Positions 27,405-53,822 of a stretch of 64,000 nucleotides of DNA are shown here, one piece after another. Numbering within the stretch: position 1 is the first letter of the stretch; each line of letters begins with the position of its first letter. The notes under the pieces were generated by a model. The model was not told the origin of the DNA. It did not search any database and worked only from the letters and a program-made list of their open reading frames with translations. The position numbers were made by a program, and so were the translations under genes. This DNA comes from Methylobacterium sp. (GTDB taxonomy: Bacteria > Pseudomonadota > Alphaproteobacteria > Rhizobiales > Beijerinckiaceae). The stretch is from the NCBI GenBank assembly GCA_002928875.1, contig PERO01000003.1:62001-126000 (forward strand), in the 5' to 3' direction.

Positions 27405-28370
27405 TTACTTCTCGAAGCGGGAGAACACCATATCCGGCGCGGATGTGTTGTGGCGCGATGCGACGTGCCGGCCGGCCCAGAACTCGGTGGCCTCCCCGCC
27501 CTTGTAATCGAGGATATGCGCCTCGCCCCAGCGCGGGTTCTTCGCCTCGCGCCAGGCGACGCGGGCCGCATCGTTGTTCGTCTCGGTGATATACATCGAG
27601 CGGAGCGCTGCGAAAGGCTTGTCCTTCGGCAGATCGCCGGCCAGCGTCGCTTCGAGCACGAAGCGATCCTGATCGAGATGCACGATGCGCAAGGCACCCT
27701 CGCCGCCATCGCGGAAGGTGAAGGTGAATTTCTTCTCCTCCGGGTCGAAGGCGATTTCCTTCAGCGCGACGATTGGCCGGCCTTCCATCGTCACGGGGCC
27801 GACCATGAAGCTCGAACCATAGGCGGTCCAGCCCAGATGCTTCGGCGGCAATGGACGCGCGCGCCAGTAGCCATCGGGCGGATAGACCACCAGCATTTCC
27901 TCGGAGCGCTCGTTCACGCGCATCCAGAGCTGGATGAGGTGCAGGCCATGCTCCACCCGGTCGCCGATCTTCACCGGCACGGTGGCGGGACGCCAGAAGG
28001 CGGGGAAGACATGCCCCACCACCCACATCGAGGGGGTTTCCCAGAGCGTCACCTGCCTGGGCTTGCCCGACACGAAAGCCGGGTCGCCGGTCATGTCGCA
28101 GGCGGTCCAGTCCGGCAGGTAGCGATCCTCCCGCAGCATGCCGATATAGCTCGGCTGGATCGCCTGGATCTTGAAGCGCCGCACGTCAGGGTTCGCGAAG
28201 CGGATATCGATGTTGTCCTTCTCGGCGCAGACCTCGGGTTCGGAGAGGTTCTCGACCTTGACGGTCATTTCGTCTTTCGGGGGAGCGAGCACGGGGCCTC
28301 CGGGGGTATTCTGGGCAAAAGCGGGCGCAGCGAGGAGCGTGAGAAAGGCAGCGAGGCTAGCGCGCCTCAC
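27405..28370 (-). CDS. Secreted protein of unknown function
   Basis: 321 residues from a GTG at 28368-28370, which directly begins a signal peptide (RRASLAAFLTLLAAPAFAQ). The mature part is acidic/aromatic-rich and strand-like, with single cysteines at EVCAEKDNID and WTACDMTG that could form a disulfide. I do not recognise a family. The frame continues upstream through the palindromic repeat 28371-28476, which is non-coding in other copies, so the GTG at its edge is the likely start. It lies downstream of mdoH-fkbM on the same strand. Confidence 0.65.
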   Translation of the reverse strand: MRRASLAAFLTLLAAPAFAQNTPGGPVLAPPKDEMTVKVENLSEPEVCAEKDNIDIRFANPDVRRFKIQAIQPSYIGMLREDRYLPDWTACDMTGDPAFVSGKPRQVTLWETPSMWVVGHVFPAFWRPATVPVKIGDRVEHGLHLIQLWMRVNERSEEMLVVYPPDGYWRARPLPPKHLGWTAYGSSFMVGPVTMEGRPIVALKEIAFDPEEKKFTFTFRDGGEGALRIVHLDQDRFVLEATLAGDLPKDKPFAALRSMYITETNNDAARVAWREAKNPRWGEAHILDYKGGEATEFWAGRHVASRHNTSAPDMVFSRFEK

Positions 28371-28476
28371 CGTGTCATTCCCGACGGCGGCGAAGCCGAC
28401 GAGCGGGAATCCACGAAGGACCGGCAGGCATGGGTTCCCGTTCTCAGGGCCTGCGGCCCTGGCCGGGAATGACACG
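28371..28476. repeat. Dispersed palindromic repeat, family 1 copy 1
   Basis: 106 bp with perfect 13-bp inverted ends CGTGTCATTCCCG (28371-28383) and CGGGAATGACACG (28464-28476), plus inner arms. Other copies are at 32228-32321 and 62279-62373. It ends exactly at the GTG start of the secreted protein on the minus strand and starts 9 bp past the FkbM stop. Confidence 0.88.
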
Positions 28477-28485
28477 TTGAGCCGT

Positions 28486-29253
28486 TCAGGCCAGAACCGC
28501 ATAGACGTCTCCCGAATTGGCCGCATGCGGCAGGGCGCGGATATGCGCCTCCATCGCCTCGGCGGACAGGCCTTCCGCGAAGGTCATCTGCTGGCTCTCG
28601 CCCAGTGCGATGTTAAAACGATAGGGCCCGCGCCGCGCGATCAGCGCCAGGCACTGATAGGCCACGGCGCGCTGGATGGTCGTGAACTCAAAGGAAAGCG
28701 CCGGAATGGGGCGGGAAAGCCCCGCGAGCACATCCGCCTCGAAGCCTTCGACGTCGATCTTCACGAAATCCGGCACCCCATATTGGCTGATGAGTGCATC
28801 CAGCGTGGTGACCGGCACATGGATCTCGCGATCCCAGATCTGGCCCTCCCAGCCGGCGGCACCATCCGCAGCCTTCAGGAAATCCGCGGAGGCCGTGGAA
28901 ACGGTGGGGTTCGCGGTGTTGACGTGCAGGGTGAGTTCGCCGGGCTGCGGGCCACAGGCGCTCTCGAGGAGCGTCACGCCGGCATCGCCCGCGAAGATGG
29001 CGCGGATGGCGCTGGCGCAATCCGGTTGCGGCTCGAGCGCCACGACCCGCGCGCCGCAGCGCCGGAAGGAGCCGATCCGGTCGCCGACATGCGAGCCGAT
29101 ATCGAACGCCAGCGAACCGCCCGCGAGGAAGCGCGCATAGAGCGCATCCATCGCGTCATCCCTGGGCTTGTCGCCGTGATAGACCTCGAAGGAGCGCTTG
29201 AGGCGCGGCCATTTGCGCGTGAGCGCCGAGATTTCCGTAACCGAGAGCGCCAT
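28486..29253 (-). CDS. FkbM family methyltransferase
   Basis: 255 residues. SAM-binding motif LAFDIGSHVGDRIGSF, acidic ARVVALEPQP, and the FkbM signature PDFVKIDVEGFEADVLAGLS with LSFEFTTIQ. These enzymes usually O-methylate a sugar or polyketide hydroxyl. Its ATG is separated from the mdoH stop by one base, so it is translationally coupled to the glucan synthase. Methylation of the glucan is the natural guess, though osmoregulated periplasmic glucans are better known for phosphoglycerol or succinyl substituents. Confidence 0.88.
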   Translation of the reverse strand: MALSVTEISALTRKWPRLKRSFEVYHGDKPRDDAMDALYARFLAGGSLAFDIGSHVGDRIGSFRRCGARVVALEPQPDCASAIRAIFAGDAGVTLLESACGPQPGELTLHVNTANPTVSTASADFLKAADGAAGWEGQIWDREIHVPVTTLDALISQYGVPDFVKIDVEGFEADVLAGLSRPIPALSFEFTTIQRAVAYQCLALIARRGPYRFNIALGESQQMTFAEGLSAEAMEAHIRALPHAANSGDVYAVLA

Positions 29254-29254
29254 G

Positions 29255-31051
29255 TCAGTGACCCGCTTCCTGCTGGCGGAGCTTCGCGACGATCGCCGGC
29301 GTGTCGATTTCCTCGGGGATCGCGTAGAGGCCGCGCTTCACGCTCGCCGCGCCGAGCGCCGGTTCCGCGCTCCACACCGCGAAGGGGATGGCGACGAGGA
29401 AACCGAGGGTGAGCGGCAGCGACCACAGCGCGAATTCGATGCTCGTCGCGGCCATCAGGCCGACTACCACGAAGCCGAACAACGTCTGCGGCCAGAGGTT
29501 CGAGGTCGCGACATCCCACGGCACGCCATGCGCGTCGCGCGCCTGCCCGCCCCAGGTGACACTCTTTCCGAAGAGCAGCCCGACGATGAAGATCGTGGTG
29601 CGGAAGGTATCCGACGCACCGAGGATCCACGCGAAGACGATTTCGCTCAGCCCAGCGAACAGGAACTTGCCCGTGCCGCCATAGCGCTTCGTGCCGCCCG
29701 GCGTGAGCATGATGTCGATGAGGCCGGCGATCTTCGGCATCAGGTTCATGATCGTGAAGAAGATATAGAGCGTCAGCGCCGAAGCTGCGGGGAAGGCCGC
29801 GAGGCTCTCGCCGTCGAAGGGCTTCAGCGCCGCGAGCGGCAGCATCAACGTCCAGGCGGGGATGCCGAGGAACATCAGGATCGCCCAGATCAGCTGGAAG
29901 CGGCTGACCGGATAAAGCCCCTTGGTGTCGAGCAGCTTGAAATATTGCAGGTTGCCCTGGCACCAGCGCGTGTTGCGCTTCATGAATTCGAGGATGGTCG
30001 GCGGGTTTTCCTCCCAGGAACCGCCCTCCTCCGGCATCACGCGCACTTCGTAGCCCGCGCGACGCATGAAGGTGGCCTCCACCTGATCATGGCTCAGGAT
30101 ATGCCCGCCGAAGGGCGGTGGGCCGGGCAGCACGGGCAATTCGCAATGGTCGCGGAAGGGCGCGATGCGCGCGAGCGCATTATGGCCCCAGAACGGGCCG
30201 CAATCGCCCACCCACCAGGCCTGCCCCATCGTGTAGGAGCGCATGCCCTGCCGCATGCCGAACTGGAAGACGCGCGCGAACAGGCTCTGCGACGGCATGC
30301 CGACCACAAGGCTCTGCAGGATGCCGAGCTTCGGGTTCGCTTCCATGATGCGGACATGCCGGAGGATCGTCTCGCCATCCATCAGGCTGTCGGCATCGAG
30401 CGGCAGCATGAGGTCGTAATCCGAACCCCAGCGATTGAGGAAATCCTTCACGTTGCCGGCCTTGAAGCCGGTATTGTCCGTGCGGCGGCGATAGAAGAGT
30501 GGCGCAGCCTCGCCGGCCTCGGCCTTCCAGGCGGCGAAGAGTTCCTCCTCCTGCGCCGCGACATCGTCCTTGTTGGTGTCGGAAAGCAGGAAATAGGCGA
30601 ATTTTTCGCCATAGCCCGTGGCATCCACCGTTTCCTTCACGAGCCGGAGGCGACGGAAGGCGCGCGAGGGGTCCTCGTTGCGCAGCGTCATGAAGATCGC
30701 GGTCTTCAAGGTCACCGGCATCGCGGGGTTGGCGAGTTCGGCGAAGGGCGCGACATCCTTCATGGCGTTGCGCGGGCCATGCAGCAGGAACAGGCCGATG
30801 ACGGCGTTCCAGAAGCCGAGCACCGCCCAGGGCGTGCCGAGCAGGAAGCCGATGAACAGCAGGATATCGACCCAGCTCCAGCCGCCCACCGAAAGAATGG
30901 ACCAGCCCCACACGGCGAGACCGAGATAGAGCACGATGTTCAGGCCACCCACGATGAGGCGGCGCAACATCAGCACTTCCGAACTCTGGGTGCCGGTGGG
31001 GGTCAGGGGAAGCTCGGCGCGGATGGCGGCGGGCTCGGTGGTCATCGTCAT
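29255..31051 (-). CDS. mdoH: Glucan biosynthesis glucosyltransferase H
   Basis: 598 residues; inner-membrane GT2 enzyme that makes and extrudes the beta-glucan backbone of osmoregulated periplasmic glucans from UDP-glucose. Membrane segments lie at about 35-95 and in the C-terminal third. Catalytic elements: YDLMLPLDADSLMDG, SQSLFARVFQFGMRQG, and the RNTRWCQGNLQY block equivalent to QxxRW. Shorter than the E. coli enzyme because the long N-terminal tail is missing. The usual partner mdoG is not in the window. An ATG six bases downstream is an alternative start. First gene of an operon with fkbM. Confidence 0.93.
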   Translation of the reverse strand: MTMTTEPAAIRAELPLTPTGTQSSEVLMLRRLIVGGLNIVLYLGLAVWGWSILSVGGWSWVDILLFIGFLLGTPWAVLGFWNAVIGLFLLHGPRNAMKDVAPFAELANPAMPVTLKTAIFMTLRNEDPSRAFRRLRLVKETVDATGYGEKFAYFLLSDTNKDDVAAQEEELFAAWKAEAGEAAPLFYRRRTDNTGFKAGNVKDFLNRWGSDYDLMLPLDADSLMDGETILRHVRIMEANPKLGILQSLVVGMPSQSLFARVFQFGMRQGMRSYTMGQAWWVGDCGPFWGHNALARIAPFRDHCELPVLPGPPPFGGHILSHDQVEATFMRRAGYEVRVMPEEGGSWEENPPTILEFMKRNTRWCQGNLQYFKLLDTKGLYPVSRFQLIWAILMFLGIPAWTLMLPLAALKPFDGESLAAFPAASALTLYIFFTIMNLMPKIAGLIDIMLTPGGTKRYGGTGKFLFAGLSEIVFAWILGASDTFRTTIFIVGLLFGKSVTWGGQARDAHGVPWDVATSNLWPQTLFGFVVVGLMAATSIEFALWSLPLTLGFLVAIPFAVWSAEPALGAASVKRGLYAIPEEIDTPAIVAKLRQQEAGH

Positions 31052-31233
31052 GGAAGGTCGGCCTTTCGGTCGAAGATCAGATGGGGCGAAGTTGCGAAAA
31101 GTCCCGCCTTGCGCGTCCCTCTCTGGCATGAAAAGGGTGCGGGGCGAAACCGGCGCGAAACGGGTTTTCCCGTCCTTGCGGCGGCTTCCTGCCATGCGCA
31201 ATCTGAACAGAAGCAAACTGAAACGGCCGAGCC

Positions 31234-32214
31234 ATGTTCATCTCCGCCCCTGCCCGCGCGCTCTGGTATGTCGGGCCGATGCAGGCCGAATTGCGCGAGG
31301 AGCGCGTGGAGCCGCCGCTGGCGGATGAATCCCGCCTCGTGATGCTGGCTTCCGCCCTCTCGCGCGGCACGGAACGGCTCATCGCCTCGGGCCTCGTGCC
31401 GGAGGGCGAGCGGGAGCGCATGCGCTGCCCGCACCAGGCGGGGGATTTCCCGTTTCCGGTGAAATACGGCTATTGCGCCGTGGCGCGCGTCGAGGAAGGG
31501 CCGGAGGCATTCGCCGGCCAGCGCGTCTTCGTGCTCCACCCGCATCAGGATGTGTTCAACGCGAAAACCGCGATGCTGAACCCGATCCCCAAGGACATCC
31601 CCACCCCGCGCGCGACGCTCGCCGCCAACATGGAAACCGCGCTCAACGCGATCTGGGATTCCGGCATGAGCGCGGCGGATCGCGTCACGGTTGTCGGCGG
31701 CGGGCTCGTGGGCCTGCTCGTGACCTACATCGCCGCGCGCTTTCCCGGCGCGGAAGTCACGCTCGTCGATGTGAACCCCGCCCGCGCCGAAATCGCCACG
31801 TTGTTCGGCGCGCGATTCGCCCTGCCCCCGGATGCGCCGAAGCATCAGGATGTCGTGTTCCACACCTCCGCGAGCCAGCCCGGCCTCGCGACGGCCATCG
31901 CCGCGAGCGCCGCGAATGGCACGGTGATCGAACTCTCCTGGTATGGCGAAAAGCCGCTGATGGTGCCGCTCGGCGGGCATTTCCATGCGGGCCGGGTGAA
32001 GCTCGTCTCCTCGCAGGTCGGCACGGTGTCGCCGGGCCATGCCGCGCGCGGCTGGACTTATTCATCGCGCCTTCAGGCGGCGTTGCGCTTATTGCGCGAC
32101 GAAAGGCTCGACGCGCTTCTCACCGAAACGCTTCCCTTCCCCGCTTTGCCCGACGCCATCCCGCGGCTGCTCGCCGCGGATGCGAAAGGCCTCGTGACTG
32201 TCGTGAGTTATTGA
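31234..32214 (+). CDS. MDR-family dehydrogenase lacking the catalytic zinc motif
   Basis: 326 residues. N-terminal segment ALSRGTERLIASGLVP and a central Rossmann fold, VTVVGGGLVGLLVTYIA (about 150-166), place it among medium-chain dehydrogenases near the BchC branch. The usual GHE zinc-ligand motif is replaced by KYGYCAVARV, and the canonical N-terminal Cys is absent, so catalysis is probably zinc-free. First gene of a run with a PTPS-fold protein, glycosyltransferase, methyltransferase and acyltransferase, and probably a redox step of that pathway. Divergent from mdoH. Confidence 0.72.
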   Translation: MFISAPARALWYVGPMQAELREERVEPPLADESRLVMLASALSRGTERLIASGLVPEGERERMRCPHQAGDFPFPVKYGYCAVARVEEGPEAFAGQRVFVLHPHQDVFNAKTAMLNPIPKDIPTPRATLAANMETALNAIWDSGMSAADRVTVVGGGLVGLLVTYIAARFPGAEVTLVDVNPARAEIATLFGARFALPPDAPKHQDVVFHTSASQPGLATAIAASAANGTVIELSWYGEKPLMVPLGGHFHAGRVKLVSSQVGTVSPGHAARGWTYSSRLQAALRLLRDERLDALLTETLPFPALPDAIPRLLAADAKGLVTVVSY

Positions 32215-32227
32215 ATTGAACCGCCGA

Positions 32228-32321
32228 GTGTCATTCCCGACGCGCTGAAAGCGCGAGCGGGAATCCATACCAAGGCAAGAGGTGGATCCCCGTTCGCCCT
32301 CGCGGGCGCCGGGGATGACAC
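32228..32321. repeat. Dispersed palindromic repeat, family 1 copy 2
   Basis: 94 bp; ends GTGTCATTCCC (32228-32238) and GGGGATGACAC (32311-32321), with inner arms such as CGCGCTGAAAGCGCG. It lies between the MDR and PTPS-like genes, inside what looks like one operon, and would form a long hairpin in the mRNA. Confidence 0.85.
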
Positions 32322-32354
32322 GAAGCGCCTGAAGCAGACCACAAGGAGACCCTG

Positions 32355-32756
32355 ATGTTCGCCGTTGAAGTCCGTGACCGCATCATGATCGGCCATTCCC
32401 TGCCCGATCCGTTCTTTGGCCCGGCGCAGAACATGCATGGCGCGACCTTCGTGGTCGATGTCGCGTTTTTCCGCGAGAAAATGACCAAACAGAACGTGGT
32501 GGTGGATATCGGCGCGGCGCTCGATACGCTCGCGGCGGTGCTGAAGCCGCTGAAATACCAGAATCTCGACGAACTCCCGCAGTTCAAGGGCGTGCTCACC
32601 ACGACCGAGTTCCTCTGCCACCACATCTTCGAGGCGATGTTGAAGGCCGCGAAATCCGGCGCGCTCGGCGAGGATGGCAAGGGCCTGACGAAGATCCGCG
32701 TGACCCTGCACGAAACCGACCTCGCCCGGGCGTGGTTTGAAGGGAATGTGGCTTGA
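32355..32756 (+). CDS. PTPS/QueD-fold protein with substituted active site
   Basis: 133 residues, normal PTPS length. The fold is recognisable: IGHSLP (His14) aligns with the first zinc His, MHGATF (His28) with the HGH motif, LTTTEFL with NPTxExL, and TLHETD (Glu120) with the C-terminal pterin-binding Glu. Compared with E. coli QueD from memory, the catalytic Cys is missing, the second His of HGH is Ala30, and the Asp-His pair is Lys67-Tyr68. It is therefore not a standard PTPS or QueD. It may bind a pterin or pyrimidine, or catalyse a different step. AAGGAGA precedes the ATG. Confidence 0.75.
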   Translation: MFAVEVRDRIMIGHSLPDPFFGPAQNMHGATFVVDVAFFREKMTKQNVVVDIGAALDTLAAVLKPLKYQNLDELPQFKGVLTTTEFLCHHIFEAMLKAAKSGALGEDGKGLTKIRVTLHETDLARAWFEGNVA

Positions 32757-32835
32757 TCAGGGGAGCCGGCCGAAATGTCGCGGGCGCAAAACCGGTGACC
32801 ACTTTTGCTGACATTTCGGCTGGTCGAGGCTTGCC

Positions 32836-33921
32836 ATGACCAGGATCGCCTTCGTCATTCCCGGCGATCTGTCGCTGCCCACCGGCGGCTACAACTACGA
32901 TCGCGCCGTGATCCGCCTGCTGCCGCAGGCGGGGGTGGAGGCCTTGCACGTCGCGCTGCCCGGCGGCTACCCGAACCCCAGCGCCACGGATCTCGAGGAT
33001 ACCGCCGCCATCATCGCGAGCCTGCCGGCGGATTGCCTGCTGCTGATCGACGGCCTCGCCTATGGTGCGATGCCGGAGAGCCTGATCCGCGGCTTCAACC
33101 GGCGGATCGTCGCGCTTTGCCACCATCCGCTGGCGCTGGAGAACGGCATCTCGCCCGAGCGTGCGGTGGCCTTGCATGATTCCGAATCCGCCGCTCTGGC
33201 GCTCGCCGAGCACGTGATCGTCACCTCGCCGCTCACCGCGAAGATCCTCGCGGGCGATTTCGGCGTGCCGCGTGACAAGATCACCGTGGCCGAGCCCGGC
33301 ACGGCCCGGAAGATGCGGGCCACGGGCTCGAAATCCGACATCGTCAACATGCTGGCAGTGGGCTCCATCGTGCCGCGCAAGGGCTATGGCGTGCTGGTCG
33401 AGGCGCTGCACGGCCTGAAGCGCCGGAACTGGAAATTGCGCATCGCCGGCACGGCCCGGAGCCTCGAGACGGTGAATGCCCTGCGCGACCAGATCCGCCT
33501 TTCCGGCCTCGACGAGCATATCCAGCTCCTCGGCGCGGTGCCGGATCGCGATCTCGATCATCTCTTTGAAACAGCCGACCTTTTCGTCATGTCCTCGCTC
33601 TTCGAAGGCTATGGCATGGTCCTGGGCGAAGCCTTGCAGCGCGGGCTCCCCATCGTCACCACCACGGGCGGCGCCGCGAGCGAAACCGTGCCCGATGGCG
33701 CGGGGCTGAAAGTGCCGCCGGGTGATGTCTCGGCCCTGCGCAAGGCGCTCGACGACGCGCTGGCCGACCCCGGCTTGCGCGCAAGCCTCGCCGAGGCCGC
33801 CCATCGCGCGGGCCAGAACCTGCCGACCTGGGAGGATACGGCCCGCATCATCGCCGGCGCGCTGCAAGGCCTGCCCGTCGCCCCCTCCCCCTCCGTTTCA
33901 TCTGCCTCGAAAGGCACCTGA
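32836..33921 (+). CDS. Glycosyltransferase family 4 protein (pterin-like cluster)
   Basis: 361 residues, GT-B fold. N-terminal IPGDLSLPTGGYNYDRAVI, middle NMLAVGSIVPRKGYGVLVEAL, and donor motif FVMSSLFEGYGMVLGEALQRGLP with the EX7E glutamates. Short for GT4, and sited between a PTPS-fold gene and a methyltransferase rather than in the polysaccharide locus, so a small-molecule acceptor is plausible. Its stop is 2 bp before the methyltransferase start. Confidence 0.87.
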   Translation: MTRIAFVIPGDLSLPTGGYNYDRAVIRLLPQAGVEALHVALPGGYPNPSATDLEDTAAIIASLPADCLLLIDGLAYGAMPESLIRGFNRRIVALCHHPLALENGISPERAVALHDSESAALALAEHVIVTSPLTAKILAGDFGVPRDKITVAEPGTARKMRATGSKSDIVNMLAVGSIVPRKGYGVLVEALHGLKRRNWKLRIAGTARSLETVNALRDQIRLSGLDEHIQLLGAVPDRDLDHLFETADLFVMSSLFEGYGMVLGEALQRGLPIVTTTGGAASETVPDGAGLKVPPGDVSALRKALDDALADPGLRASLAEAAHRAGQNLPTWEDTARIIAGALQGLPVAPSPSVSSASKGT

Positions 33922-33923
33922 CC

Positions 33924-34775
33924 ATGGGTTTCTCCGCCGATTGGCTGGCTCTGCGCGAGCCGGCCGACCATCGCTCCCGTTCCGCCGAACTGCTCGCGAC
34001 GCTGGCGAAGCGTGTCGACGGCCGTGACGTCCTGCGCATCACCGATCTCGGCTGCGGCACGGGCTCGAACCTGCGCGCCACCGCGCCCGCTTTCGGCCCG
34101 AGGCAGGAATGGACGCTCGTCGATTACGATCCCGCCCTGCTGAAGCGCGCGGAACAGGTCCTCTCCGAATGGGCGGACGAGGCGAAGCCGGCCGGCGAGC
34201 GGCTGGTGCTGGTGAAGGACGGCAAGACGATCGAAGTCGCCTTCCGCATCGCGGACCTGAATGTCGAACTGGAGCAGGTCATTTGCGGCGCGATCGACAT
34301 CGTCACGGCCTCGGCCCTGTTCGATCTCATCTCGGAAGCCTGGATGCGCCGCTTCGTGAAGGCGCTGAAGACCACGCCGGCGATCTTCTACACGGTGCTG
34401 ACCTATAACGGCGAGGATGATTTCATCCCCGCCCATCCCTTCGATTGGGGCATGATCAACGCCTTCAAGATCCACCAGCGGCGCGACAAGGGTTTTGGCC
34501 CGGCGGAAGGCCCGATGGCCGCCGCGACTTTGGCGCGCCTTCTCCGCGAGGAAGGCTATGGCGTCGAGACCGCCGACACACCCTGGGTGCTCAAGCCCTC
34601 GGATATCGCGCTGAAGACCGAGCTCCTGAAGGGCCTGCACGGCGCGGTGATGGAAACCGGGCTCATCGCCGACAACGGCGCCGATGACTGGCTGTTCTGG
34701 CGCACCTCGATGGGCGACCAGAAGGGCTCGCGCATGAAGACGGGCCACACGGATATCCTCGCCGTAAATCCCTGA
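33924..34775 (+). CDS. SAM-dependent methyltransferase (pterin-like cluster)
   Basis: 283 residues. Motif I ITDLGCGTGSNLRA near residue 39 and acidic strand end WTLVDYDPALL; further on, IDIVTASALFDLISEAWMRRFV. The C-terminal half has an FDWGMINAFKIHQRRDKGFGP block that probably shapes the substrate pocket. Tightly coupled on both sides: 2 bp after the glycosyltransferase, and one base shared with the GNAT start. It likely methylates the cluster product. Confidence 0.82.
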   Translation: MGFSADWLALREPADHRSRSAELLATLAKRVDGRDVLRITDLGCGTGSNLRATAPAFGPRQEWTLVDYDPALLKRAEQVLSEWADEAKPAGERLVLVKDGKTIEVAFRIADLNVELEQVICGAIDIVTASALFDLISEAWMRRFVKALKTTPAIFYTVLTYNGEDDFIPAHPFDWGMINAFKIHQRRDKGFGPAEGPMAAATLARLLREEGYGVETADTPWVLKPSDIALKTELLKGLHGAVMETGLIADNGADDWLFWRTSMGDQKGSRMKTGHTDILAVNP

Positions 34776-35197
34776 TGCCAACGCTGCCATCCCTCACGTT
34801 GCGGCCCGCCACCCTGGCGGAGATCCTGCCGGTGCGCAGCGCCGGCCTCCAACCGGGCGAGCCGCTGGACGCCGTCGCGATCGACAACGATGCCGAGGGC
34901 CTGCATTTCGCGATGTTCGGCGAGGACGGGCCGTTGAGCGTCGCGAGCCTCTTCATCGAGGGCGAGCGCATGCGATTGCGCAAGTTCGCGACGCTTCCCG
35001 CCTGGCAGGGGCGCGGCATCGGCACGCGACTTCTCGCGGCCATGATCGAGGAAGCGCGCAGACGCGGCGGGCGCATCTTCTGGTGCAACGCGCGGGTCGA
35101 TGCGCTGGCGATCTATGCCCGCGCGGGCCTCGAGCCCGTCGGGGATCGGTACGAGAAAGACGGCCGGCTCTACCAGGCCATGAGCCGGCCTCTCTAG
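34775..35197 (+). CDS. GNAT family N-acetyltransferase
   Basis: 140 residues with the acetyl-CoA-binding motif LPAWQGRGIGTRLLAAMIEEA and a C-terminal AIYARAGLEPVGD helix-strand, as in small-molecule GNATs. The start overlaps the methyltransferase stop (TGATG). Last gene of the plus-strand run; it ends 2 bp before the stop of the convergent cytochrome b561 gene. The acceptor is unknown. Confidence 0.85.
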   Translation: MPTLPSLTLRPATLAEILPVRSAGLQPGEPLDAVAIDNDAEGLHFAMFGEDGPLSVASLFIEGERMRLRKFATLPAWQGRGIGTRLLAAMIEEARRRGGRIFWCNARVDALAIYARAGLEPVGDRYEKDGRLYQAMSRPL

Positions 35198-35199
35198 CC

Positions 35200-35754
35200 T
35201 CACGCGCCGGGCATCATCCGGCGCAACACGCCGTCCTTCTTCACGAAGCCATGCATCATCGCCCCGGCGAAATGCAGCGCGACCAGCGCCGCCAGCGCGA
35301 TTGCCGCGTAGCCGTGCAGTTGCAGGAGCGTTTCCGCGAGCTTCTCGTTGATCGGGGCGATGGGCGGCAGCGACAGGCCAAAGAAAATCCCGCGCGCGGG
35401 ATAGGCCGAGACGCCCGCCCAGCCCAGCAGCGGCACGAGGAGCATCAGGACATAAAGCAGCTTGTGCACGGCTTCCGAGACGAAGCGCTCCATCGGCGAC
35501 AAGGTCGCGACCGGGGCGGGCGCACCGCGGCTCCGGCGCACGACGATGCGCAAGGCGACCAGCATCAGCACCACGAAGCCGAAGGTCTTGTGCGCGGTGT
35601 AGAGCGTGTTGGTCCATGCGTCGAAATTGGTCTTCGCGCCACGGTCGACCATGTAGAACCCGATGGGCAGCATCGAGAGAATCATCAGCGCAATCAGCCA
35701 GTGCAGGGCCTTCTGGGCGCCAGAATAGGATTGCGGTTCACGCCCCGTTGCCAT
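35200..35754 (-). CDS. Cytochrome b561 family membrane protein
   Basis: 184 residues with four membrane segments. Candidate haem ligands fall in the membrane helices: ALHWLIALM, AHKTFGFVV, VHKLLYVLM and ALHFAGAMMH. It shuttles electrons across the inner membrane, typically from quinol or to/from a periplasmic acceptor. The start at 35752-35754 has AAAGGGG. Its first 17 bp overlap the 3' end of the RibD-like gene in another frame, so the two are co-expressed; a redox role in the same pathway is inference. Confidence 0.87.
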   Translation of the reverse strand: MATGREPQSYSGAQKALHWLIALMILSMLPIGFYMVDRGAKTNFDAWTNTLYTAHKTFGFVVLMLVALRIVVRRSRGAPAPVATLSPMERFVSEAVHKLLYVLMLLVPLLGWAGVSAYPARGIFFGLSLPPIAPINEKLAETLLQLHGYAAIALAALVALHFAGAMMHGFVKKDGVLRRMMPGA

Positions 35755-36472
35755 GATCACCCCTTTGATCCGAAACCAGATCACAATCGAATAGCACCTC
35801 GCCGGCCCCCAGCATAATCACCTCGACTTGAGGCCGGCGCGCTTCCGCAAGCCGCTGGATCGGGGCGAGTTCGAGCCCGGGCTGGCCGGAACCGATCAGC
35901 ACCGGCGACACCATGAGATGCAGCCGGTCCACGATTCCCGCATCGATTGCCTGCGAGATGATCGCCGCGCCGCCTTCGAGGAGCACGCGCTCGAAGCCAA
36001 GACGCCGCAGCGCCCGCGCGAGTTCCACGAGGTCGAACCGGCCGGCGGCATTCACGGGGAGCCCGTGCTGTTCGACCCCCTCGGGAAAATGGCCCGCCGG
36101 CATCGATGCGCCGCGCAACACCACGCGCCGGGCGCCATCGCTGCCGTCGAGGCATTGCGCGGCGGCCGGAAGCCGCCCTTTCGCATCGATGACGACCCGC
36201 GCGGGGTTCGGGCCCGGACAATGCCGGACATTCAGCCTGGGATCATCCGCCAGAACCGTGCCGATCCCCACCACCACCGCATCGACATGCGCGCGGATCG
36301 CGTGCAGATGCGCGAGCGAGGGCCGGCTGCCGATATACTTGCTGTCCCCCGTGACGGTGGCGATGCGCCCGTCGAGGGACTGGCCGAGCTGGGCCACGAT
36401 GAACGGCCGATCGGGACGGCGCGGCCGGAAAAATCGGAACGGATTCGGTTCGGCGGGCGTTGACGGCAGCAT
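35738..36472 (-). CDS. Stand-alone RibD C-terminal-type reductase
   Basis: 244 residues. Only the reductase half of RibD: QSLDGRIA, HLHAIRAHVDAVVVGIGTVLADDPRLNVR, then VLLEGGAAIISQAIDAGIVDRLHLMVSPVLIGSG. The deaminase domain is absent, as in the fungal/archaeal RIB7 type that reduces the GTP cyclohydrolase II product before deamination. The Lys usually three residues before the SLDG motif is Gln here. Since a complete ribD lies at 52171, this is a second pathway branch or backup. The ATG at 36470-36472 was chosen; a GTG 12 bp upstream is possible. Divergent from ribA. Confidence 0.85.
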   Translation of the reverse strand: MLPSTPAEPNPFRFFRPRRPDRPFIVAQLGQSLDGRIATVTGDSKYIGSRPSLAHLHAIRAHVDAVVVGIGTVLADDPRLNVRHCPGPNPARVVIDAKGRLPAAAQCLDGSDGARRVVLRGASMPAGHFPEGVEQHGLPVNAAGRFDLVELARALRRLGFERVLLEGGAAIISQAIDAGIVDRLHLMVSPVLIGSGQPGLELAPIQRLAEARRPQVEVIMLGAGEVLFDCDLVSDQRGDHGNGA

Positions 36473-36657
36473 GAAGCAATCCACACCCCGAAGCGAGGCT
36501 AGCGAAATGACGGTTTCCCCCCGTTCTGAAATGACGCATGCGCCGAAGGCAAGGAAATTTGAATCGCCGAATTTTCACGAAGCTGAACAGGCAGACAGGC
36601 TGCGTTCATCTTCGCTGGTGATAAGTGCCACCACCGAATGTGAACACGGTGTCCATC

Positions 36658-36676
36658 CGACGGAATTCCTCCGTCG
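36658..36676 (+). promoter_or_regulatory. Inverted repeat in the ribA upstream region
   Basis: Perfect 7-bp arms CGACGGA and TCCGTCG separated by ATTCC, 34 bp before the ribA ATG and in the divergent spacer shared with the RibD-like gene. It could be an operator or a leader hairpin. I saw no FMN-riboswitch core in this 238-bp spacer. Confidence 0.4.
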
Positions 36677-36710
36677 AAAAGACCGTAAACATGGACTGAT
36701 TGGAAGTGAA

Positions 36711-37832
36711 ATGAGCAAGGTTGCCGAAGTTCTTGGGCTTTTCGATACGGCGGACGAGCGCGCGGTGGATCGCGCCATCGCCGAATACCGCGCAGGCCGC
36801 CCGGTTGCGGTTCTGGATGGCGACGAGGCCCTCGTGGTGCTCCTCGTCGATGCCCTGAGCCAGAAGATCGCGGAAGGTCTCGATACGCTTTCTCCGGGCC
36901 GCGCCCGGCTGATCATCCCGGCCGCGCGCCTGCGCCGGCTGGGCCTCGACCGCCAGCAGACCGGCATCGTCGCCTTTCCCGTGCCGGATGCGGCGCGCGT
37001 GGCAACGCTGGCTCTCAAGATCGATGCACGCATCGACGCGCCCGTCTCCCCGGCTGTGGCGCTTGACGAGGCCGCGATCGAACTCGCCCGCCTCGCGCTG
37101 CTGACCCCGGCGGTCTATGCCATTCCGATGGCGGTTTCGGCCGTGACGAGCGATCTCGTGCGCGTCTCGCTGAAGGATATCCGCGATTATCGCGCGGCGC
37201 AGGTCAAGGCGATCCAGATCGTCGGCCGCGCGCCGGTTCCGCTCGAATTCGCGGCGGAAACCGAGTTCGTGGTGTTCCGCGGCGGCGAAGGCCTGCGCGA
37301 TCAGGTGGCGATCATCGTCGGCAAGCCGGATTTCTCGAAGCCGGTGGCGATCCGCATGCATTCGGCCTGCCTCACGGGCGATCTGTTCGGCTCGCTGAAA
37401 TGCGATTGCGGCGACCAGCTGCGCGGCACCGTGCAGAAGATGGCGCAGGCGGAAGGCGGCATCCTGCTCTATCTCGACCAGGAGGGCCGCGGGAACGGGA
37501 TCGCCAACAAGATGCGTGCCTACAAGCTGCAATCGCAGGGCTGGGACACTTACGACGCGGATGAGGTTCTGGGCTTCGGCCTCGACCAGCGCCGCTTCGA
37601 TTTCGCGGCCGAAATGCTCCGCAAGCTCGGCGTGACGAGCGTGCGCGTGATGACCAACAACCCCGAGAAGATCGGCGCGCTGAAGGCGTCCGGCCTCGAG
37701 GTCGTGGCCGACAACCGCGCCTATGGCCGCCCCACTGCCGAAAATGTGAGGTATCTTGCCTCTAAACGTGATCGGGCGGGCCATTTCATCGACTTCGATG
37801 CGATGGTAGCACATGCACCTCTGACAGATTGA
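36711..37832 (+). CDS. ribA: GTP cyclohydrolase II with long N-terminal extension
   Basis: Converts GTP to 2,5-diamino-6-ribosylamino-pyrimidinone 5'-phosphate, formate and pyrophosphate. 373 residues. The C-terminal 200 hold the whole catalytic core: zinc cysteines in HSACLTGDLFGSLKCDCGDQL, then DQEGRGNGIANKMRAYKLQ, DADEVLGFGLDQR and VMTNNPEKIGAL. The first 165 residues are not a working DHBP synthase (no acidic ERENEGD-type motif). ATG at 36711 after TGGAAGTGA. It may feed riboflavin, the neighbouring reductase, or both. Confidence 0.92.
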   Translation: MSKVAEVLGLFDTADERAVDRAIAEYRAGRPVAVLDGDEALVVLLVDALSQKIAEGLDTLSPGRARLIIPAARLRRLGLDRQQTGIVAFPVPDAARVATLALKIDARIDAPVSPAVALDEAAIELARLALLTPAVYAIPMAVSAVTSDLVRVSLKDIRDYRAAQVKAIQIVGRAPVPLEFAAETEFVVFRGGEGLRDQVAIIVGKPDFSKPVAIRMHSACLTGDLFGSLKCDCGDQLRGTVQKMAQAEGGILLYLDQEGRGNGIANKMRAYKLQSQGWDTYDADEVLGFGLDQRRFDFAAEMLRKLGVTSVRVMTNNPEKIGALKASGLEVVADNRAYGRPTAENVRYLASKRDRAGHFIDFDAMVAHAPLTD

Positions 37833-37882: not shown

Positions 37883-40261
37883 ATGCTCCAGAAGTCGCCT
37901 GAAACGGCGAAGGATCTCGCAGAGATCCTTCTCCCGCGTATCACCTATCCGCCGGTTGTTCCGCGGGGCGACGATCTTCGAACCTGGCTTTCCGTTTCCG
38001 GACTTCTCGTTCTGGTCTGGGCCGGTCTCGCATGGCCCTGGCTCTCCGGCCAGGTCACCATTCCCTGGGATGCGAAGGCGCATTTCCACGCGCAGGTCGT
38101 TTTCCTGGCCCAGTCGCTCCATCGCGGCGACAGCCCGTTCTGGGCGCCCTTCGTGTTTGGCGGGCATCCGCAGATCGCGGACCCGCAATCGCTGATCTTC
38201 TCGCCGCCGCATTTCATCCTCGCGATGCTGACGCCCGATCCGACCATGCAGATGGTGGATGCGGTCACCTTTCTCGGCCTGCTGTTCGGCGCATTCGGTG
38301 TTCTGGGTTTCGGCCGCGATCGCCGCTGGCACCCTGCGGCTGCGTTGGTTGCGGCCATCGCCTTCGCCTATGGCGGCGCCGCCTCGTGGCGCATTCAGCA
38401 TACAGGGCAGATCTTCTCGCTGATCTACTTCCCCTGGGCGCTCTGGATGCTCGAGCGCGCCCTGCGTCTCGGCTCGGCCCGGTATGGCGCGCTGGCGGGC
38501 TTTTTCGCGGCGCTGACGGCACTCGACCCCGATCAGGTGGCGTTCCTGACCCTGCTGGCCCTCGCCGGCTACGTCGTCGCCTACTGGATGACCGGGCGGG
38601 CCTTTGTTGAGCGCTTCCGCGCGACGCTGGTGCCGCTGGTGGTGGGAACCATCGTCGGTGCGGCGATCATCGCGCTTCCCACGATGATGGTGCTCGGCTT
38701 CGCCGCTGAATCAAACCGGCCGCATTTTTCCATCGCCGATGCGGAAATGGGATCGCTCCATCCGTCGAGCCTGCTGACGCTGCTCGTCGCGAACCTCTTC
38801 GGCACGATCGGCCCGGCCGAGAATTTCTGGGGCGCACCCAGCGCCCACTGGCCCTATATCGTGAGCCTCGTCATCGCCCGGAACATGGCGAATTTCTACA
38901 TGGGCGTGCTGCCGCTCGCGGGGATCGTGCTATGGCTGACGTCGCGCCGGGCCTATGGGCATCGCTTCATGGTGCTCGGCATCATGTTCGTCGTGATGAC
39001 GCTTTACGCGCTGGGGCAATACACGCCGCTGTTCGGCGTGCTCTACCACGCGCTGCCCGGCGTCTCGCTGTTTCGCCGCCCGGCGGATTCGCTGTTCCTC
39101 GTCGGTGCGCTCGGCGCTTTCCTCGCGGGCTTCGGCATCGATCACATGATCCGTCGCGGCGAGGAGATCGGCCGGAAGGCGATCGTCATCCTGGGTGGGC
39201 TGGCGGCTTTCGGATTTGCCGCTTCCACCGGCATGGCGATCTGGCTTGGAAAGCTCCCGCAGGCGCTGCCGGAAATGCTGATCGCGCTTGCGTTCATCGC
39301 GCTCACGGTCACCGTCGTGCTGCTGGTCCGGCCCCTGGCCATGCGCCGGCCCATTCTCGCCGCGAGCGCTTTCGCCGTGCTGTTGCTCGCGGATTTCGGC
39401 TGGAACATGCGCCCCAACGATTCGACCGGCCTGCCGCCTGCCGAATATGACGCGATGCGTCTCGACACCGAGAACGAGACCATCATGGAGCTCAAGAAGC
39501 GCATCGTCGAGGACGGGACGCGCCGCGACCGCGTGGAAATCGCCGGCCTCGGTTTCCATTGGCCCAATCTGGGCCTCGTCCACGGCTTCGAGAACACGCT
39601 GGGCTACAACCCGCTGCGCCTGAAGCACTACGCCGCCGCAACCGGCGCGGGCGACCAGGTCGCCGGCATCGACCAGCACAAGTTCGCGCCGCTCTTCCCG
39701 TCCTACCGGTCGCCCTTCGCGAACCTGATGGGCCTGCGCTTCATCGCGATCGGCGCGCCCATCGCGGAGGTCGATCCGCGCATGCGGGCGAATCCGCTGC
39801 CGCTCGTGGCACGCACGAACGAAGCCTATATCTACGAGAATCCGGATGCCCTGCCGCGCGTGATGGTGGTGAACGAGGCGCAGATCGTCGATCAGGCGCG
39901 CCTGCTGCAATTCGGCGAATGGCCCGGCACCGATTTCCGCCGCGTCGCCTATATCGAGCGCACCTCCCTGCCCCTGCCGCGCACGCGGCTCGGCGGCACG
40001 GCGCGCATTACCCGCTACACCAACACCGAGATCGTGGTGGAAACCGATGCCCAGCGCGGCGGCGTGCTGCTGCTGAATGACATCTGGCACCCGTGGTGGT
40101 TCGCGGAAATCGACGGGAAATCGACCCCGGTCCTGCGCGCCAACGGCATTTTCCGCGCCGTGATCCTGCCGGCGGGCGTGCAGACCGTGACCTTCCGCTT
40201 CGAACCGCTGCGCGGGCTGCTGCGCGGCTTGCTGACCTCCACACGCTTCATTCCGGGCTGA
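37883..40261 (+). CDS. YfhO-like large membrane protein
   Basis: 792 residues with about a dozen membrane segments in the first 510 residues and a soluble C-terminal domain of about 270. The N-terminal loop after the first membrane span (PWDAKAHFHAQVVFLAQSLHRGDSPFWAPFVFGGHP) and LFRRPADSLFLVGALGAFLAGFGI match YfhO-type proteins related to GT-C glycosyltransferases that use polyprenyl-linked sugars. The C-terminal RGGVLLLNDIWHPWW segment is also typical. Start after GGGGGAAA, 50 bp past ribA. Function is not established; a lipid-linked glycosyl transfer is inference. Confidence 0.78.
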   Translation: MLQKSPETAKDLAEILLPRITYPPVVPRGDDLRTWLSVSGLLVLVWAGLAWPWLSGQVTIPWDAKAHFHAQVVFLAQSLHRGDSPFWAPFVFGGHPQIADPQSLIFSPPHFILAMLTPDPTMQMVDAVTFLGLLFGAFGVLGFGRDRRWHPAAALVAAIAFAYGGAASWRIQHTGQIFSLIYFPWALWMLERALRLGSARYGALAGFFAALTALDPDQVAFLTLLALAGYVVAYWMTGRAFVERFRATLVPLVVGTIVGAAIIALPTMMVLGFAAESNRPHFSIADAEMGSLHPSSLLTLLVANLFGTIGPAENFWGAPSAHWPYIVSLVIARNMANFYMGVLPLAGIVLWLTSRRAYGHRFMVLGIMFVVMTLYALGQYTPLFGVLYHALPGVSLFRRPADSLFLVGALGAFLAGFGIDHMIRRGEEIGRKAIVILGGLAAFGFAASTGMAIWLGKLPQALPEMLIALAFIALTVTVVLLVRPLAMRRPILAASAFAVLLLADFGWNMRPNDSTGLPPAEYDAMRLDTENETIMELKKRIVEDGTRRDRVEIAGLGFHWPNLGLVHGFENTLGYNPLRLKHYAAATGAGDQVAGIDQHKFAPLFPSYRSPFANLMGLRFIAIGAPIAEVDPRMRANPLPLVARTNEAYIYENPDALPRVMVVNEAQIVDQARLLQFGEWPGTDFRRVAYIERTSLPLPRTRLGGTARITRYTNTEIVVETDAQRGGVLLLNDIWHPWWFAEIDGKSTPVLRANGIFRAVILPAGVQTVTFRFEPLRGLLRGLLTSTRFIPG

Positions 40262-50500: not shown

Positions 50501-51019
50501 TCAGCCCTCGCGCACGGGCGCAGGCTTCGCGAGATCCTCGGCGCGATAATCGCGCGCCAGCTTGTCGAGCACGGCATTGACCATGCCGACCTCGTCCTTC
50601 TCCAGGAAGGCCGAGGCGATATCGACATATTCCGAGAGGATGACGCGCGGCGGCACATCCATGCTGTGCTTCAGTTCGAAGGCGCCCGCGCGCAAAGTCG
50701 CGCGCATGATGGCCTCGACGCGCTTCAGCGGCCAGCCCTCGAGAATGCGATCGACGGCGCGGTCGAGCGCGACCTGATCGTTCAGCACCCCTTCCATGAT
50801 CGACCGGAACAGCGCGGCCTCGGCGGGCTTGTACTGGTCGCCCTCGATCTCCCGGCCGATCCAGAAGCTCTCGAACTCCGCGAAGACCTCGTTCAGCCCC
50901 TTGCCGGCCAGTTCCATCTGGTAGAGCGCCTGCACGACCGCGAGGCGCGCCGCCGCGCGCTTCTCGCCCCGGCTGATGGACCGGTCGCGCGAACGGATGC
51001 GCTTGCCTTCCTCGATCAT
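50501..51019 (-). CDS. nusB: Transcription antitermination factor NusB
   Basis: 172 residues, all-helical. N-terminal SRGEKRAAARLAVVQALYQMELAGKGL and C-terminal PPRVILSEYVDIASAFLEKDEVGMVNAVLDKLAR are the RNA-binding and NusE-binding faces. With NusE it forms the boxA-binding unit for rRNA antitermination. Start overlaps the ribH stop by 4 bp. Confidence 0.96.
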   Translation of the reverse strand: MIEEGKRIRSRDRSISRGEKRAAARLAVVQALYQMELAGKGLNEVFAEFESFWIGREIEGDQYKPAEAALFRSIMEGVLNDQVALDRAVDRILEGWPLKRVEAIMRATLRAGAFELKHSMDVPPRVILSEYVDIASAFLEKDEVGMVNAVLDKLARDYRAEDLAKPAPVREG

Positions 51020-51489
51020 CGCTCAATCCCCCGCTTCAACGCCACGAGTGTGAGAGCGGCCCGGGCGGCGTCGCCCCCCTTGTCGCCCGTCGCCGGATTG
51101 GCGCGCGCTTCCGCCTGCGCCTCGTTCTCCACCGTCAGGATCGCATTGCCGAACGGCATGGCGCTCGCGGTGGCCAGATCGATCAGCGCGCGGTTCGCCT
51201 GCACCGAAACGATCTCGTAATGCGTGGTTTCGCCGCGAATGACGATGCCGAGCGCGACGAACCCGTCCGGCTTCGGCTCCTGCGCCATGCGGATCGACAT
51301 GGCGACGGGAATTTCCAGCGCGCCGGGCACGGTGATGACCTCGACGCTCGCGCCCGCCGCCGCTGCGGCCGCCTTCGCGCCGGCGAGCAGCATGTCGTTG
51401 AGCGCGTCGTAATAGCGCCCCTCGATGACGACGATATGGGCACCGCGCGCGCCGGTCACCGGCGCCTGCTGGCGCTTGGCCTCAGCCAT
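51016..51489 (-). CDS. ribH: 6,7-dimethyl-8-ribityllumazine synthase
   Basis: 157 residues. Condenses 5-amino-6-ribitylaminouracil with dihydroxybutanone phosphate. Motifs: VIEGRYYDALND, VPGALEIPVA, VALGIVIRGETTHYEIVS and the catalytic-His region. The ATG at 51487-51489 (MAEAKRQQAP) is preceded by AGGAG; the upstream open frame is not needed. 31 bp after ribE. Confidence 0.96.
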   Translation of the reverse strand: MAEAKRQQAPVTGARGAHIVVIEGRYYDALNDMLLAGAKAAAAAAGASVEVITVPGALEIPVAMSIRMAQEPKPDGFVALGIVIRGETTHYEIVSVQANRALIDLATASAMPFGNAILTVENEAQAEARANPATGDKGGDAARAALTLVALKRGIER

Positions 51490-51520
51490 GACAAACTCCT
51501 GAATTCCCGAGCGCTTGCGT

Positions 51521-52171
51521 TTAGGCGGTTCCCTGCCGCTCGGCAAGCGCTGCCGTCTCGGCGAGACGCGCCGCATAGCGCGCCATCATGTCGATCTCGA
51601 GATGCACCTTCTCGCCCGCCTGCCGCCCCCCGAAAGTGGTGACGGCGAGCGTGTGCGGGATGAGCAGCACCGAGAACAGATCGTCCTCGACCGTATTCAC
51701 CGTGAGCGACACGCCATCGAGCGTCACCGAGCCCTTGGTGGCGATGAAGCGATGCAACGGCTTCGGGGCCCGCAAGGTGAAGCGTGCGGTCGCGCCCCAG
51801 TTCGCGTCCGACGGCGTCACCTCGTCGCGCGACACGATTTCGACCAGCGCATCGACATGGCCGGTGACGAGGTGACCGCCGAGTTCATCGCCGATCTTCA
51901 GCGCGCGCTCGAGATTGACGCGCGTGCCGGCCTGCCACGTCCCGACATGGGTGAGGCGCAAAGTCTCGGCCGCGGCCTCCACCTCGAACCAGCTCGCGCC
52001 CTTTTCGCCGCCAACCGCGATCGCCGTGAGACAGCAGCCGGCGCAGGCGATGGACGCGCCGATGGCGATGGTCGCGGGATCATAGCCGCAGGCGATGCGC
52101 AGGCGCCGGAGGCTTGCGCCGCCCTCGACGCTTTCCACGGTTCCGATGTCGGTGACGATGCCGGTGAACAT
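51521..52171 (-). CDS. ribE: Riboflavin synthase alpha chain
   Basis: 216 residues with the two-fold lumazine-binding repeat. MFTGIVTDIGTVESVE is the hallmark N-terminus; GASIACAGCCLTAI, GGHLVTGHVDA and KGSVTLDGVSLTVN follow. Dismutates two lumazine molecules to riboflavin. Start and ribD stop share one base (TGATG). The symbol ribE is used for the alpha synthase; some systems call it ribC. Confidence 0.96.
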   Translation of the reverse strand: MFTGIVTDIGTVESVEGGASLRRLRIACGYDPATIAIGASIACAGCCLTAIAVGGEKGASWFEVEAAAETLRLTHVGTWQAGTRVNLERALKIGDELGGHLVTGHVDALVEIVSRDEVTPSDANWGATARFTLRAPKPLHRFIATKGSVTLDGVSLTVNTVEDDLFSVLLIPHTLAVTTFGGRQAGEKVHLEIDMMARYAARLAETAALAERQGTA

Positions 52172-53337: not shown

Positions 53338-53822
53338 CAGCCGCCATCCTCGCTGGCATCGCCCGAGGCTTCCTCCGGGCCCAGTTCGCGCAGGATGTCG
53401 CCAAATTCCTCGGCCGCCGTGAAATTCTTGTAGACCGAGGCGAAGCGCACATAGGCCACCTGGTCGAGCCGCCGCAGGCGCTCCATCACCAGCGCGCCGA
53501 TGCCCTCGCTCGTGACTTCGCCCTCGGACTGGCTCTCGAGTTCGCGCACGATGCCGTTGATGAGCCGCTCGACGCGGTCGCGGTCGATGGGGCGCTTCCT
53601 CAGCGCGATCTCGATCGAGCGGGCGAGCTTGTCGCGGTCGAACGGCACGCGCCGGCCCGAGCGCTTCACCACCATCAGTTCCTTCAGTTGCACGCGCTCG
53701 AAGGTGGTGAAGCGGCCGCCGCAATCCGTGCAGACGCGCCGGCGACGGATCGCCCCGCCATCATCGGCCGGGCGACTGTCCTTCACCTGGGTGTCGAAGG
53801 AACCGCAGAAGGGACAACGCAT
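53337..53822 (-). CDS. nrdR: Transcriptional repressor NrdR
   Basis: 161 residues. N-terminal zinc ribbon [18 protein letters not shown]...[15 protein letters not shown], then an ATP-cone ([28 protein letters not shown]). It represses ribonucleotide reductase genes according to nucleotide state. First gene of the riboflavin/nusB/thiL operon, a widespread arrangement. The ATG at 53820-53822 begins exactly at the zinc ribbon; the upstream open frame covers the glyA terminator. Confidence 0.96.

Follow-up and report, generated by a model that had tools for sequence, protein, structure and literature searches.

The riboflavin pathway starts from GTP with GTP cyclohydrolase II (GCH II), a BrbF/ArfB formamidase and a Rib7/RibD_C reductase, and these first steps are matched by the RibA and RibDc proteins of the gene cluster described here and, at some loci, by a protein of the creatininase family; BrbF of Sinorhizobium, formerly annotated as a creatininase, is a demonstrated formamidase acting on the GCH II intermediate (PMC9478397). 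The cluster lies in a 64,000-nucleotide stretch of DNA from Methylobacterium sp. (GenBank assembly GCA_002928875.1, contig PERO01000003.1, positions 62,001 to 126,000 of the forward strand), called the window throughout, and centres on a PTPS-fold protein. This protein belongs to the same PTPS subfamily as SCO6650 of Streptomyces coelicolor, whose structure (PDB 3d7j) was deposited as uncharacterized. Spoonamore and colleagues reportedly found in 2008 that SCO6650 lacks zinc, a catalytic triad and PTPS activity. Methylated and glycosylated pterins are made by cyanobacteria (cyanopterin and its relatives), where synthesis begins with GTP cyclohydrolase I and an active PTPS; we compare them with the present system by inferred product type only. 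The OpgGH/MdoGH system for periplasmic glucan synthesis is related through a flanking family 2 glycosyltransferase (GT2) of the cluster, which is an MdoH paralog.

We found an orthologous set of genes that occur together across many genomes, among them RibA and RibDc proteins akin to pyrimidine-pathway enzymes. We consider it reasonably probable that the set encodes a dedicated orphan biosynthetic pathway, named here after SCO6650, leading from GTP to a pteridine-like, glycosylated and methylated product. Genes of the core, its partners and two further genes in the window are as follows.

31234..32214, plus strand: MDR-family dehydrogenase, core (weak PF00107 match, 29.1 bits against a cut-off of 31.8)
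32355..32756, plus strand: SCO6650-type PTPS-fold protein with GPAQxxHGA motif, core (PF01242, 72.4 bits)
32836..33921, plus strand: GT4 glycosyltransferase, core (PF00534, 108.7 bits)
33924..34775, plus strand: class I S-adenosylmethionine (SAM) methyltransferase (MT), core (Pfam methyltransferase domains)
34775..35197, plus strand: GNAT protein (present in the window)
35200..35784, minus strand: cytochrome b561, recurrent accessory (PF01292)
35738..36484, minus strand: stand-alone RibD_C/Rib7-type pyrimidine reductase (RibDc), core partner (PF01872, 131 bits)
36711..37832, plus strand: GTP cyclohydrolase II (RibA, with an extra N-terminal region), core partner (PF00925, 171.8 bits; ATG at 36711)

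The core operon of the window runs in the order MDR, PTPS fold, GT4 and MT, with GNAT next. RibDc and cytochrome b561 are convergent to it, and RibA is divergent from RibDc. A preliminary description of the window had named all of these genes, and Pfam and NCBIfam models place each of them where it had put them; the tight coupling it noted from GT4 onward is likewise seen as a 2-base gap between GT4 and MT followed by a 1-base overlap of MT and GNAT.

For the proposed pathway we infer the order of steps, the pteridine nature of the compound, the substrates of MDR, MT and GT4, and delivery to the envelope. GTP cyclohydrolase II would open GTP to a formamido- or diamino-ribosylaminopyrimidinone phosphate, a creatininase-family protein, where present, would remove the formyl group, and the RibD_C/Rib7-type reductase would yield a ribitylamino-pyrimidine. 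The MDR enzyme and the PTPS-fold protein may then shape this pyrimidine into a pteridine-like compound, for example by oxidising a side-chain hydroxyl and closing the ring onto the 5-amino group. Methylation of this compound would fall to the class I methyltransferase and glycosylation to GT4, and one of two alternative modules would hand the product to the envelope.

Conservation of the core cluster

Regions were compared from the window's order (54), at class level (20, including those of two MdoH-bearing, PTPS-negative genomes, G076 and G111), at phylum level (14), from the best 80 named loci and from plasmid records. The 172 tabulated loci are those with a PTPS match; as 80 of them are the best of at least 587 confirmed PTPS candidates among named genomes, the set leans towards the window. 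Dropping five duplicates left 167 distinct loci, 141 of which span at least 15 kb; genomes outside the named set were classed only as belonging to the same class as the window or as other. Loci L166 and L167 (no PTPS match), L230, L231 and L236-L239 stand outside the 172.

Among the 141 loci of at least 15 kb, MDR, PTPS, GT4 and MT are all present in 123, which supports a grouping beyond chance, and at least three of the four occur in 139. Individually, MDR homologs were found in 138, MT in 133 and GT4 in 131 of these loci, while RibDc is present in 91, RibA in 66 and one or both in 101. Cytochrome b561 recurs in 68 of the 167 distinct loci in several arrangements. The GNAT gene, which the preliminary description had counted as a member, has no retained match in the 172 loci and is thus best seen as a local passenger; the conserved co-occurrence proposed there as a check holds for MDR, PTPS, GT4, MT, RibDc and RibA and fails for GNAT.

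Co-occurrence was further determined genome-wide in a panel of 199 genomes of the order, 54 with the PTPS protein (29 of 99 genera) and 145 without. At 144 bits or more (next score 89), 41 of the 54 genomes with PTPS have a RibDc ortholog, against 1 of the 145 without (Fisher P 7e-30; here and below P values ignore kinship), the single exception, G123, being a 56%-complete assembly. Full-length RibA, defined by a match beginning at query residue 22 or earlier, occurs in 29 of 54 and 6 of 145 genomes, respectively (P 2e-14). Of the 41 genomes, 5 have RibDc and PTPS on the same contig at distances from 57 kb to 4.4 Mb, and 7 have them on separate contigs; in G052, one of the latter, a contig break may have divided a gene. 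Six of these 12 genomes show a RibA match no more than 700 bases from RibDc. The co-occurrence of RibDc and PTPS hence exceeds physical linkage.

Gene order differs between lineages, and the genes can make up a single operon. A usual Hyphomicrobiales form is MDR-PTPS-GT4-MT facing RibDc, then RibA. Rhodobacterales can carry one-strand forms, GT4-IMPase-(FkbM)-RibA-MDR-PTPS-MT-RibDc or PTPS-MT-RibDc-RibA-MDR-IMPase-GT4, and other loci of the class show RibDc-MDR-PTPS-GT4-MT. L216, a proteobacterial locus from outside the class, has the same succession of CDP-alcohol phosphatidyltransferase, MDR, PTPS, GT4, MT, LPG_synthase_TM protein and RibDc as Streptomyces globisporus (L239); after these come RibA and then creatininase in one of the two loci, and creatininase and then RibA in the other. 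On two Streptomyces plasmids MDR-PTPS-GT4-MT is accompanied by creatininase and RibA, a Microbacterium plasmid holds a variant without RibA, and so does a Thiodictyon plasmid in the stretch shown. Three genomes of 1.4-1.6 Mb retain creatininase, MDR, PTPS, GT4, MT, RibDc and RibA.

At class level 46 of 385 genomes have a match to the PTPS protein, one of them scoring only 27 bits, and at phylum level 40 of 398 do, with 27 matches above 180 bits and 13 weak ones (37-47 bits). Eleven of the 27 strong matches fall outside the window's class, eight in one family and three in another. The closest named relative among the matches listed, from Rhabdaerophilum calidifontis (90% identity), sits in the same cluster without GNAT. 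Overall, the bacterial range comprises many alphaproteobacteria, some gammaproteobacteria and actinobacteria, with a divergent form in haloarchaea. Gammaproteobacterial presence rests on the Thiodictyon plasmid and Pseudohaliea rubra, whose locus, a short 8.7-kb contig with Rhodobacterales-like gene order, could be a contaminant. Since the genes are kept in genomes of about 1.5 Mb and in distant lineages, the product is probably of general use as a cofactor or envelope component.

A profile of 38 members of the PTPS family matches 3d7j at 3e-56, whereas canonical PTPS/QueD chains match at 3e-6 or weaker. The predicted structure (predicted local distance difference test, pLDDT, 95.4) superimposes on 3d7j, a T-fold structure, with a Foldseek TM of 0.93 at 49% identity; for the next entry, E. 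coli QueD (3qna), the values are 0.74 and 18%. All 167 distinct loci carry HGA in place of HGH, and GPAQxxHGA is found in each except L162, where GPGQ is seen. Ala30 takes the place of the second His of HGH, and Ala24 that of the Cys, in all 55 aligned sequences. His14 and His28 are retained in the aligned PTPS sequences, and so are Glu120 and the Thr-Glu pair at 84-85, barring one Thr-to-Ser change and one truncated sequence among the 55. We take the positions concerned to be those of zinc ligand, nucleophile and pterin anchor. By sequence and fold, the protein is an SCO6650-type paralog and not QueD, and it has lost the PTPS catalytic residues but appears to keep a pterin-type pocket. As separate observations, Rhodomicrobium (L046/L116) has a second SCO6650-type copy with no cluster gene matched around it, and two Streptomyces plasmids (L230, L231) carry stand-alone relatives, 44-45% identical to the window's protein, whose neighbours encode MEKHLA, cupin and MBL-fold proteins with no core cluster gene among those annotated.

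Regarding the remaining core enzymes, the usual zinc motif was not seen by eye in the MDR dehydrogenase, which has no ADH_N match and scores 33.6 bits against the BchC model, far below that model's cut-off. The MT is predicted to adopt a class I fold (pLDDT 97), and a fold search returned generic class I matches alone, with no clue to its substrate. Solved relatives of GT4 at E 1e-10 (4 sequences) include PimB-type and inositol-phosphate glycosyltransferases. Downstream of RibA, a YfhO-like gene (37883-40261) was considered as a member and rejected as a local neighbour, being present in 16 of 167 loci. An Rfam scan of 26-42 kb gave no regulatory RNA at gathering score, and sigma-70 and terminator scans of 31-38 kb gave 0 and 6 sites, numbers not above those for shuffled sequences.

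Two alternating envelope modules

Divergent from the core operon of the window lies a further group of genes.

27405..28526, minus strand: secreted protein of no known family (SecX; start uncertain), with a signal-peptide-like N-terminus by eye, conserved partner of the MdoH-type envelope module
28486..29253, minus strand: FkbM-family methyltransferase, envelope module (PF05050, 58.3 bits)
29255..31129, minus strand: MdoH/OpgH-like family 2 glycosyltransferase paralog (start uncertain; NCBIfam MdoH models), divergent from the core operon

Across the 167 loci, MdoH alone was found in 92, a CDP-alcohol phosphatidyltransferase alone in 32, both in 6 and neither in 37; for the 54 PTPS-positive genomes of the order the corresponding numbers are 43, 8, 1 and 2. 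The core is thus accompanied by one of two envelope modules that almost exclude each other, an association newly seen here. With a cut-off of at least 483 bits (next score 337), the MdoH paralog is present in 44 of 54 PTPS-positive and 2 of 145 PTPS-negative genomes (P 7e-32), and many of these genomes hold a second, lower-scoring MdoH elsewhere. The paralog scores above the cut-offs of NF003958 (521 bits over 419) and NF003962 (494 over 328), and below those of NF003963 (871 under 884) and of others. In the window it is flanked not by OpgG but by FkbM and then the secreted protein, which has no Pfam match at E 0.001, on one side and by MDR on the other. The secreted protein has homologs in 38 of 167 loci, every one of which contains MdoH and lacks CDP-alcohol phosphatidyltransferase. 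Of the 59 loci with FkbM, 38 contain MdoH but no CDP-alcohol phosphatidyltransferase, 14 show the reverse, 2 hold both and 5 hold neither. The second module includes further genes, as CDP-alcohol phosphatidyltransferase accompanies 25 of 27 LPG_synthase_TM loci and 19 of 21 sulfatase-like loci. The phosphatidyltransferase lies far from PTPS or on another contig in three of the eight genomes of the order that carry it without MdoH (G055, G092 and G116), and it is not exclusive to the system because six PTPS-negative genomes have it.

Two side observations concern these modules. In one family (G021, G067 and G103), a CDP-alcohol phosphatidyltransferase of the same family adjoins an MdoH homolog, and these genomes lack the PTPS gene. 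In G111, one of the two PTPS-negative exceptions for MdoH, MDR and RibDc matches lie close together by MdoH with no PTPS, GT4 or MT match (L167), and the locus looks like a partly deleted cluster.

The preliminary description had ended the neighbourhood at the MDR gene. The grouping it named was upheld, yet it stopped too early upstream, since the FkbM, MdoH-like GT2 and secreted-protein genes (27.4-31.1 kb) belong to it too. Its overall reading is accordingly borne out in part: the central grouping stands, GNAT has to be removed and an envelope module added.

The alternation of two modules is the main reason to expect the product at the envelope, and suggests an envelope-bound glycosylated, methylated pteridine. 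As a tentative and rather doubtful extension, the pteridine could form the head group of a membrane lipid or the tip of a periplasmic glucan, i.e. a redox-active anchored glycoconjugate that may exchange electrons with cytochrome b561. In the lipid-anchored form, CDP-alcohol phosphatidyltransferase (in bacteria and Haloarcula) together with flippase-like LPG_synthase_TM and sulfatase-like proteins would anchor the pteridine, while the lineage of the window would rely on its MdoH paralog to carry the pteridine on a glucan.

The same linkage could be explained by an envelope glycan or glycolipid pathway, which we regard as unlikely. Here GT4, MT, FkbM and the MdoH-like GT2 (or CDP-alcohol phosphatidyltransferase, flippase-like and sulfatase-like proteins) would build a decorated glucan or glycophospholipid, with RibA, RibDc and PTPS providing a redox helper of pterin or flavin type. 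Given the linked envelope genes, GT4 may then act in polysaccharide synthesis. The strong association of the MdoH paralog with PTPS, the near-exclusive use of the two modules in the 54 genomes, the OpgG-like gene found in 8 of 167 loci and the kinship of GT4 with PimB and inositol-phosphate glycosyltransferases all speak for it. However, the compact loci L168-L170 retain the pyrimidine genes while the flanking 9 kb or so on each side contain no match to MdoH, FkbM or CDP-alcohol phosphatidyltransferase, and we know of no role for PTPS, MDR or MT in known glucan pathways.

Proposed entry from GTP

Returning to the proposed pteridine pathway, its first enzyme, RibA, scores 499 bits against NCBIfam NF006456 (cut-off 464) and carries the zinc cysteines and the RAY motif with its active-site Tyr, residues whose roles we take to be those of canonical GCH II. 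RibDc has PF01872 as its sole domain and no deaminase domain. Its best solved relatives are 6p8c (105 bits), a 2,5-diamino-6-ribosylamino-pyrimidinone phosphate reductase, and 2azn (94 bits), with bifunctional RibD scoring lower (68 bits).

RibDc might instead, with the same fold, reduce a dihydropterin, and so work on the pteridine at a late stage and not on the pyrimidine. RibD_C has a dihydrofolate-reductase-like fold, DmrA of methylotrophs is, we assume, a dihydropterin reductase of this fold, and RibDc stays below the NCBIfam reductase equivalog cut-offs (TIGR01508, 114.2 of 186.45 bits; TIGR00326, 108.4 of 156.35 bits). With pyrimidine reductases as the best solved relatives and RibA as next neighbour of RibDc in many loci, we judge this very unlikely.

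Creatininase-family genes are present in 14 of 167 distinct loci; this family includes a known formamidase of the riboflavin route. In both Streptomyces clusters a creatininase is adjacent to a RibA with Met at the active-site Tyr position, and Met-type GCH II presumably stops at the formamide. A general pairing of Met-RibA with creatininase was rejected: it holds in 2 of 2 Streptomyces clusters and fails elsewhere, as all 51 RibA motifs found by pattern keep the canonical Tyr, including the nine in creatininase loci. Three large Haloarcula plasmids (L236-L238) carry GTP cyclohydrolase III (PF05165, 276 bits in the one plasmid scanned) between CDP-alcohol phosphatidyltransferase and MDR-PTPS-MT, along with GT4 and a Gfo/Idh oxidoreductase. 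GCH II thus appears to be replaced there by a non-homologous first enzyme. The Haloarcula MDR is 41% identical to the Streptomyces MDR (one plasmid compared). Both the creatininases and the Haloarcula GTP cyclohydrolase III lend support to entry from GTP via a riboflavin-type pyrimidine.

Alternatively, RibA and RibDc could form a second riboflavin branch giving extra flavin, with MDR-PTPS-GT4-MT as an unrelated neighbour. Both are riboflavin-type enzymes, and a search at E 1e-10 found no GCH II besides the cluster RibA in either the window's genome or that of a complete congener. The window's riboflavin genes, located by eye in the list of open reading frames, are the following.

51016-51576, minus strand: ribH
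51521-52264, minus strand: ribE
52171-53724, minus strand: ribD (reductase domain also matched)

This operon, already named in the preliminary description, is separate from the RibDc and RibA genes of the cluster, and no ribA or ribBA was seen by eye among the listed reading frames at 51-53.7 kb. Riboflavin genes elsewhere in the window, co-occurrence of both blocks even when far apart and the one-strand runs of Rhodobacterales that join them make such a branch highly improbable. As a side observation, the window RibA found no match at E 1e-10 in 136 of the order's 199 genomes, in line with the missing riboflavin-start enzyme discussed in PMC9478397.

Most annotated public records call the PTPS protein a 6-carboxytetrahydropterin synthase, but its assignment to QueD (queuosine) or to a folate/biopterin enzyme is scarcely credible given a QueD model score (TIGR03367) of 32.0 bits against a cut-off of 89.25, the invariant HGA, 3d7j as nearest structure and a separate, higher-scoring PF01242 gene in 9 of 20 PTPS-positive genomes tested. 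The window's genome and congener G082 have no second PF01242 gene, which decides nothing on QueD.

A number of points weigh against the GTP-to-pteridine pathway. RibDc is absent from 13 and full-length RibA from 25 of the 54 PTPS-positive genomes, 40 of 141 loci of at least 15 kb lack both, and the P values of the phylogenetic profiles take no account of shared ancestry. Creatininases are rare, and the logic of stopping at the formamide holds only for the two Streptomyces clusters, as the RibA motifs found in other creatininase loci keep the Tyr. Being the sole GCH II match, the cluster RibA may also serve riboflavin synthesis. The Haloarcula PTPS retains HSH at 26% identity, the MT there is weakly similar, GT4 gives no match and no RibDc is annotated in the stretch; this form is therefore a divergent relative and not the same cluster. 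Finally, sequence does not disclose which acceptors GT4 and MT use, and a glycan or glycolipid pathway would also account for the linked genes for MdoH, FkbM, sulfatase and flippase-like proteins.

Comparison with known systems

A literature search, with most subscription papers outside its reach, found no report of the pathway or its product. The preliminary description had stated that no described system has this gene set; this agrees with our finding no described pathway and is slightly too strong, as the PTPS subfamily has a solved structure in SCO6650. We describe a widespread orphan pathway whose PTPS family had a structure and, as far as found, no function.

In comparison with riboflavin clusters, RibA and RibDc are joined here to MDR, PTPS fold, MT and GT4, while ribE and ribH of the window lie separately. 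Unlike OpgGH/MdoGH, only 8 of 167 cluster loci contain an OpgG-like gene. With respect to SCO6650, the PTPS-fold protein alone has a solved structure. A gene commonly annotated as 6-carboxytetrahydropterin synthase is thus something else, and the pathway around it probably makes a cofactor or envelope component not yet named by biochemistry. SCO6650, whose structure was released in 2008 as uncharacterized, thereby gains a concrete candidate pathway.

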